54,906 nucleotides of DNA from Deltaproteobacteria bacterium (GTDB lineage Bacteria > Desulfobacterota > Syntrophobacteria > BM002). Positions within the stretch are counted from its first letter, which is position 1, and each line of letters begins with the position of its first letter. A program made the position numbers and the translations under genes. Under the pieces are notes generated by a model. That model was not told where the DNA came from, did no database searches, and saw only the letters and a list, made by a program, of their open reading frames with translations. The DNA lies in contig JAJDNB010000044.1 in NCBI GenBank assembly GCA_022340905.1, positions 1-54,906 of the forward strand. The letters run 5' to 3'. Shown in pieces: positions 36,283 to 37,737 of this stretch.

Positions 36283-37737
36283 ATGGACAAAGGGCCTACA
36301 ATAAAATTACAGAAAATAGATGACTATCGTTGGCGGGTTCCCAGAGAGGGAAAGATGCGCACCGACGGCATTGTTTACGCCAATGAGGCCATGATGGCCG
36401 ATATCCGCAAGGACAAAAGTCTACAGCAAGTGGCCAATGTTGCCTGGCTGCCTGGGATAGTGGGGCACTCACTGGCCATGCCCGATATCCATTGGGGCTA
36501 CGGCTTCCCCATAGGAGGTGTGGCAGCATTCTCTCTGGACGATGGTGTGATCTCACCCGGGGGGGTGGGCTACGATATTAACTGAGGGGTACGACTGGTG
36601 CGCTCCAGTCTGGAGCGCAATGAAGTAACTGGACACATAAGGAAACTGGTAGAGTCACTTTTCCGAAACATTCCCTCGGGCGTTGGTTCCAAAAGAAAGG
36701 ATCTGCGGCTCAGTCAGAAGGAGCTGCAAAAGGTGCTGACTAAAGGTGCAGGATGGGCGGTTAGCCAGGGTTTTGGCTATAGAGAGGATCTGGAATTCAT
36801 CGAAGAGAGGGGCTGCATAGAAGGTGCAGACCCCAGCGTAATCTCTAGTAGAGCCTTCGAAAGAGGTAAGCCACAGTTAGGTACGCTTGGTTCAGGTAAC
36901 CATTTTGTGGAGGTTGGTTACGTTGATGAGGTTTACGACGAGACCTCGGCCCGAGCCCTGGGTTTGTTCAAAGATCAGGTAACCATAATTGTGCATACCG
37001 GCTCACGGGGCTTTGGACACCAGGTCTGCGATGATTATATCAGGATACTGATGAAATCCACCCAGAAATATGGCATAGAGCTGCCGGATCGCCAGCTCTG
37101 TTGCGCCCCAGTGAGCTCAAAGGAGGGGAAGCAGTACCTGGCTGCCATGGCCGGTGCCGCCAACTACGCCTTCGCCAATCGGCAGATAATATTACACTGG
37201 GTTCGAGAAACCTTCGAGCAGATATTTCAAATGAGCTCCGAGCGTCTTGGGCTCAGGCTTATCTATGACGTTTGTCATAACATCGCCAAGATTGAAACCC
37301 ATAAAGTGGCAGGCAAGGAAATGAAAGTGTGTGTCCACAGAAAAGGTGCCACCCGCGCTTTTCCGCCCCATCACCCAGAAATACCAGAGAGTTACAAAGA
37401 GATTGGCCAACCGGTTCTGATTCCCGGAGACATGGGACGTTACTCCTATGTGCTTGTGGGTACAGAGCAGGCCATGGCAGAGACTTACGGCAGTACTTGC
37501 CACGGGGCCGGCAGGGTTTTGAGTCGCAAGCAAGCAATGAAAGTGTCAAAAGGACGGCCTATAATCCGCGAATTGGAGGATCAGGGGATTACAATCCGTA
37601 GCGCCGGCAAGGCAACAGTTAGGGAAGAAATCCCCGAGGCGTACAAGGACGTGAGTCAGGTGGTTGAAGTAGTTTATGGAGCCGGGATCAGCCGGAAAGT
37701 GGTGCGCTTGCGACCTATGGGGGTGATAAAAGGGTAG
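36283..37737 (+). CDS. rtcB: RNA-splicing ligase RtcB, predicted selenoprotein (in-frame UGA)
   Basis: 484 residues if TGA at 36583-36585 is read as selenocysteine (position 101). RtcB joins a 2',3'-cyclic phosphate or 3'-phosphate to a 5'-OH with GTP and manganese. The UGA sits exactly where all RtcB proteins have the metal-bridging Cys: SPGGVGYDIN-U-GVRLVRSSL. All other site residues are present: Asp98 (GYDIN), NHFVEV (His207), HTGSRGFGH (His238), CHNIAK (His332) and the guanylylated histidine in TYGSTCHGAGR (His407). Sequence on both sides of the TGA is in one frame, full length and undamaged, and a SECIS-like hairpin follows. Read conventionally it would be two fragments of 100 and ~380 aa, neither functional. 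TTGGAGGGA precedes the ATG, 31 nt after archease. Confidence 0.88.
36583..36618 (+). promoter_or_regulatory. Predicted UGA codon and bacterial SECIS hairpin
   Basis: GCGCTCCA (36600-36607) and TGGAGCGC (36611-36618) form a perfect 8-bp stem with loop GTC, or a 7-bp stem with loop AGTCT. The loop begins 21-22 nt after the UGA and has a G in its first two positions, within the known bacterial SECIS rules. The pattern CCAGTCTGG resembles the GGUCU-type apical loop bound by SelB in Escherichia coli fdhF. Confidence 0.8.

Follow-up and report, generated by a model that had tools for sequence, protein, structure and literature searches.

The locus described here raises the question of whether an in-frame TGA codon within a gene for an RtcB-type RNA ligase is read as selenocysteine (Sec) or terminates the protein. 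The gene is located on a contig of 54,906 nucleotides (GenBank acc. no. JAJDNB010000044.1, assembly GCA_022340905.1) from a Deltaproteobacteria bacterium, the whole of which is referred to as the window in the following. An original prediction, made from the letters of this DNA alone, held that the TGA replaces the one Cys that is universal in RtcB and that the frame is intact on both sides, while it was silent on the hairpin that follows the TGA, on the adjoining archease gene, and on the spread of the TGA form over several phyla.

The rtcB gene and its in-frame TGA codon

The features of the window are compiled in Table 1. Gene rtcB starts with an ATG at 36283 and ends with a TAG at 37735-37737, and the TGA is the sole stop codon in between, so that the length originally predicted for a Sec-containing product could be confirmed. 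In the profile search, the deduced protein covered positions 1-426 of the 426 positions of PF01139, and it could be aligned end to end with the solved RtcB structures 2epg and 1uc2/4dwq. Based on this alignment, residue 101 (context GYDIN-U-GVR) corresponds to Cys98 of Pyrococcus horikoshii RtcB, just as had been claimed for the TGA. The remaining metal ligands and the guanylylated His, which had likewise been predicted to be present, were all found as equivalents of P. horikoshii Asp95, Asn202, His203, His234, His329, and His404. Thus, by its full-length match and its catalytic residues, the product was assigned to the RtcB RNA ligases (PF01139), and ligase activity is predicted for it. No second RtcB was found in the genome of 4.1 Mb (94% complete). 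Since TGA terminates 15 of the 39 main open reading frames of the window, a genome-wide reassignment of this codon was rejected.

Table 1. Features of the window around the rtcB gene
Feature	Position	Strand	Basis
Protein with Lnb N-terminal periplasmic domain, DUF7843, and DUF7840	30609-32543
Archease gene, 31 bp upstream of rtcB	35823..36251	+	PF01951, 162.7 bits
rtcB, RtcB-type RNA ligase of 484 aa with the TGA read as one residue	36283..37737	+	PF01139, 602 bits
TGA, predicted Sec codon, residue 101 (P. horikoshii Cys98)	36583..36585	+	Alignment to RtcB structures
SECIS-like hairpin, 8-bp stem UGCGCUCC/GGAGCGCA, loop AGUCU (36607-36611), 21 nt after UGA	36599..36619	+	bSECIS model

For comparison, we compiled 192 distinct RtcB loci after removal of repeats, namely 129 with TGA, 47 with TGC, and 16 with TGT, a TGA share (129/192) that mirrors the way the loci were chosen; 164 of them (101 TGA, 63 Cys) were full length. 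The 101 full-length TGA forms retained Asp95, Asn202, His203, and His234 without exception, His329 in 100 cases, and His404 in 99 cases. Their TGA is followed by 382-383 codons in 92 and by 378-390 codons in 99 of the 101 forms, and 381-384 codons follow the Cys codon in all 63 full-length Cys forms. Between the window's rtcB and its nearest relative, dN/dS was 0.061 upstream of the TGA and 0.062 downstream of it. Values of 0.07-0.12 were obtained for two further close pairs of the genus, and wider pairs were near saturation at synonymous sites. Decay or frameshifts around the TGA in relatives, which the original prediction had named as grounds against it, were not seen: neither flank is shortened, and purifying selection is similar on each side (dN/dS of about 0.06). 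A sequencing error for TGC or TGT, named there as well, does not fit with the TGA found in all nine matches from the same genus or family. Since relatives share the TGA, lengths are normal, and both flanks are under purifying selection, we rejected a pseudogene as well as a sequencing error. Among the database relatives listed (P0002-P0121), 52 of 120 are C-terminal pieces of 370-395 aa, several of them named tRNA-splicing ligase RtcB, because gene callers cut the gene at the TGA.

Archease is described as an activation factor for the guanylylation of RTCB (PMC10944509). When loci with at least 700 nt of upstream sequence were considered, an archease match was detected upstream in 100 of 107 TGA-rtcB loci, compared to 40 of 58 Cys-rtcB loci.

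Occurrence of the TGA form and its interchange with Cys codons

Among relatives, 117 genomes were searched, with that of the window counted in, and 107 of them had an RtcB match (G008 and G011 being among those without one). One in-frame TGA was present in rtcB of all nine other genomes of the same genus (seven) or family (two) with an RtcB match, and also in seven further genomes from other families of the phylum, the remaining matches having no internal stop. In the loci of these relatives, the TGA occupied the Cys codon every time. Close relatives, to which the original prediction had pointed as a check, thus keep the TGA, and further out it alternates with TGC or TGT.

Scanning species genomes for the pattern G-[YF]-D-I-N-TGA-G resulted in at least 118 stretches. 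Among the 118 matches listed, 115 were RtcB with TGA at the Cys codon, mostly from Desulfobacterota, Nitrospirota, and Acidobacteriota, and three (L053, L054, L143) were chance hits; the viral contigs scanned with this pattern yielded no match. The pattern was matched by 35 of 395 genomes of the phylum to which the window belongs. Thirty of these were examined as loci, 29 being RtcB and one (G263) the chance hit L053, while four of the remaining five share their contig position with L082, L039, L057, and L093, and the fifth is G271. Searches around G443 and G452, which were picked as centres for having the TGA form, revealed it in 7 of 122 Nitrospirota genomes with an RtcB match (148 searched) and in 4 of 97 Acidobacteriota genomes with such a match (149 searched), respectively. 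Judging from record titles, the TGA form also occurs in Planctomycetota (contig L077), Binatia (L117), and Methylomirabilota (L150), and L152, titled Deltaproteobacteria, carries nearly the same rtcB as L117; since all four are single contigs of draft metagenome-assembled genomes, misbinning is possible. No other RtcB was found beside the TGA form in 28 genomes, most of them draft (17 from the search among relatives, 7 Nitrospirota, and 4 Acidobacteriota). Two neighbouring RtcB pieces in G442 turned out to be one gene.

A FastTree tree was calculated for the 164 RtcB proteins with the position of residue 101 masked. On this tree, 18 changes between Sec and Cys are needed, compared to an average of 50 for shuffled labels, and its well-supported branches force at least 10. 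Real selenoprotein families can usually be recognized by an interchange of Sec and Cys. Here, the in-frame UGA matches the Cys of the homologues, and the two forms, as deduced from their codons, do interchange.

SECIS-like hairpin and selenocysteine machinery

The published bSECIS model describes a stem of 4-16 bp, a loop of 3-9 nt with a G within its first two places, a UGA-to-loop distance of 16-37 nt, and an energy of -7.5 kcal/mol or lower (PMC13188914). The hairpin of the window satisfies this model (stem of 8 bp, loop AGUCU, distance of 21 nt, energy of -17.0 kcal/mol). E. coli fdhF, which served as control, passed the same test with its loop GGUC located at 18 nt, as did selD from the genome of the window. 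Altogether, 118 of 129 TGA sequences passed and 11 failed, compared to 18 passes among 63 Cys sequences; when stems of at least 7 bp were demanded, 51 TGA sequences passed versus one Cys sequence. This one, L024 (genome G101; motif at 1774, minus strand), is a TGT rtcB that is placed next to TGA genes in the tree and has kept the full hairpin; probably, Sec was replaced by Cys recently and the SECIS is a relic. The commonest best loop among the TGA sequences is GGUC (28), which is also the loop of the E. coli fdhF SECIS, a hairpin that likewise follows the UGA directly. The window differs from fdhF in its loop AGUCU at 21 nt, and Nitrospirota rtcB in a longer stem and other loops. In 41 distinct sequences, mostly from Nitrospirota (L042-L155), this longer SECIS-like hairpin after the TGA displays a bulge and varied loops, and several hairpins of this type lie outside the published model.

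Taken alone, the stability of the window's hairpin is not exceptional: 32 of 100 synonymous recodings (z of -0.38) and 17 of 200 dinucleotide shuffles were as stable. Measured against synonymous recoding, the mean z was -1.46 in TGA sequences (n=129) versus -0.04 in Cys sequences (n=62), a difference whose p-value of 1e-10 overstates independence since the sequences are related. Compensatory changes in the stem exceeded those of all 500 shuffles in each of three stem registers, which were derived from the same sequences as were tested, with shuffles that ignore relatedness. The register of 30 distinct sequences revealed C-G and A-T at positions 19/35, C-G, G-C, and A-T at 21/33, and T-A and A-T at 22/32, with 29 cells changed on both sides versus a shuffle maximum of 18. 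For the longer-stem register of Nitrospirota (41 sequences), 28 such cells were counted versus a maximum of 14. The third register (54 sequences) is nearly invariant, with 11 such cells versus a maximum of 10 and a paired share that was reached by 1 of 500 shuffles. In 113 of 126 TGA sequences, compared to 6 of 63 Cys sequences, one register has at least 75% of its pairs formed. RNAalifold analysis of pooled hairpins gave a weak signal (-1.3, -5.1, and -1.7 in three groups, 0.0 in Cys sequences), on which separation by stem register improved. Thus, the hairpins of TGA-rtcB vary in sequence, their pairing is retained, and Cys forms seldom have them.

The genes for Sec synthesis and insertion, whose presence had been suggested as a check, were all identified in the window's genome, namely selA (621 bits), selB (400 bits), selD (377 bits, with one TGA of its own), and tRNA-Sec (selC; anticodon UCA, 75 bits), the latter as one hit over the cut-off. 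In selD (G000:C156:6121-7041, L222), the in-frame TGA is followed by a bSECIS-like hairpin. SelB reached the cut-off in 72 of the 79 TGA-RtcB genomes searched, two of which (G226 and G476) look like one genome, and was missing or below the cut-off in 7 of the 79. Since 64 of 70 relatives with Cys-RtcB have SelB too, its presence was dropped as a discriminating mark and is regarded as a permissive condition, not as proof.

With more than 100 other bacterial genomes sharing the same TGA-for-Cys change, the RtcB of the window is very likely made with Sec. We put the probability at about 0.88 that its rtcB encodes a selenoprotein, in which Sec would be inserted via the hairpin and SelB at the position of the Cys that ligates both metals.

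A predicted selenolate at the two-metal site

The remark in the original prediction that RtcB is not among the commonly listed bacterial selenoproteins proved right, as it is absent from Table 1 of a 2026 review with 119 prokaryotic selenoprotein families or subfamilies (PMC13188914). A term search found no mention of RtcB or RNA ligase in a 2022 review, and none of the four NCBIfam matches of RtcB is a selenoprotein model. Apart from an engineering paper (PMC4150793), no report of Sec in RtcB was found among open-licence papers without supplements, in titles and some passages, so an earlier mention elsewhere is possible; PMC1586002 has selenocysteine in its reference list only. Based on the conserved TGA, selection, interchange, the hairpins, and the absence from the 119-entry table, we classify TGA-rtcB as a recurrent selenoprotein family that had not been listed before. 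Its product is an RNA ligase linked to archease, for which a selenolate between the two metals is predicted. Given that a putative Sec endonuclease III was listed earlier (PMC8318568), another nucleic-acid enzyme with predicted Sec may have preceded RtcB.

In whole-length similarity, catalytic residues, and the adjoining archease, the window's RtcB resembles Cys RtcB ligases (PF01139) such as P. horikoshii RtcB and human RTCB, but has a TGA for the Cys codon of the residue ligating both metals. Sec as ligand of a catalytic metal is known from formate dehydrogenase and [NiFeSe] hydrogenase (PMC13188914). While both of these catalyse redox reactions at Mo/W or Ni-Fe, the joining of RNA by RtcB involves two divalent metals and no redox step. 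The original prediction held that such a selenolate would be chemically new and should alter metal affinity, pKa, and oxidation sensitivity. Its novelty is to be qualified in one respect: Sec has already been introduced artificially at residue 98 of P. horikoshii RtcB, with cleavage of the protein backbone as the result (PMC4150793). That enzyme is man-made, UAG-encoded, and self-cleaving, whereas the form in the window would be natural and UGA-encoded with a SECIS of its own.

Cys98 of P. horikoshii RtcB is a ligand of both Mn ions, sharing one of them with His234 and His329 and the second one with Asp95 and His203, and Ala in place of the equivalent Cys rendered the P. aerophilum, E. coli, and human proteins ligase-dead (PMC10630183). 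Cys98 was oxidised in P. horikoshii RtcB purified aerobically (PMC10630183), and exposure of human RTCB to Cu(II) or peroxide leads to inactivation at Cys122, against which PYROXD1 acts as a shield (PMC12263435).

For the selenoprotein, we propose that the hairpin just after the UGA recruits SelB with Sec-tRNA, which would place Sec at residue 101. By analogy with the family, the selenolate would then sit between the two catalytic metals, the adjoining archease would help to guanylylate His404, and the enzyme would join RNA 2',3'-cyclic-phosphate or 3'-phosphate ends to 5'-OH ends. Selenolates are readily oxidised and also readily reduced back, so that inactivation of RtcB could be reversible, and a selenolate may keep the two-metal site usable where Cu(II) or oxidants would cost a thiolate. 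Protection of an oxidation-prone metal ligand is thus proposed as our best guess for the benefit of selenium. As genomes with the TGA form yielded no further RtcB, RNA sealing would depend on selenium supply too. Taken as a whole, the following picture is put forward tentatively, at somewhat below even odds: a widespread natural RtcB selenoprotein with a metal-bridging selenolate repeatedly arose or was lost in Desulfobacterota, Nitrospirota, Acidobacteriota, and, judging from record titles, three additional phyla, and this selenoprotein makes RNA repair selenium-dependent and recovers from oxidation lethal to the Cys form.

The main rival to oxidation protection also assumes a selenoprotein and explains Sec by the choice of metal, in that a softer selenolate bridge would suit Fe, Co, or Zn in habitats that are anoxic, sulfidic, and rich in metals. 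It would agree with a residue that ligates both metals and with the differing metal specificity of RtcB orthologues (PMC10630183), but among the best 14 Sec-associated columns viewed, no clear second residue near the metals travels with Sec, and two of the best columns (109 and 111) fall inside the hairpin; we consider this explanation rather unlikely, if still worth weighing. Improbable is an escape by the altered codon from RtcB inteins, which insert at this residue: RtcB of G523, G533, G572, G632, and G660 is indeed split at residues 99-101 in frames of 964-1073 aa, resembling the intein-containing RtcB of NCBIfam NF038162, but split genes were seen in these five only. Still less credit can be given to a read-through of the UGA with cysteine, tryptophan, or another standard amino acid. 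While a Cys at the UGA would function, as Cys occupies the site elsewhere, the frames of the window that do stop at TGA and the UCA anticodon of the lone tRNA-Sec hit speak against it, and the covarying hairpin would be left without purpose. Finally, a true stop, whether by pseudogene, sequencing error, or a deliberately truncated protein of 100 aa, would be in line with the database pieces starting after the TGA, but is next to negligible in view of the TGA shared by 115 of the 118 independent pattern loci listed, the normal total length with no frame decay, a dN/dS of 0.06 on either side, and no intact second RtcB found in the genome.

Known prokaryotic selenoproteins are mostly redox enzymes or similar to such. 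If the selenoprotein reading of TGA-rtcB is true, Sec bridging two metals in an RNA ligase would mean that selenium also tunes a non-redox metal site. For annotation, it matters that TGA-rtcB is often stored in databases as C-terminal pieces. The many natural Sec/Cys pairs at one catalytic residue make the reason for selenium use testable on one enzyme. They also bear on how RtcB survives oxidation, a task handled in human cells by the dedicated guardian PYROXD1, and in bacteria with the TGA form, RNA repair would be tied to selenium.
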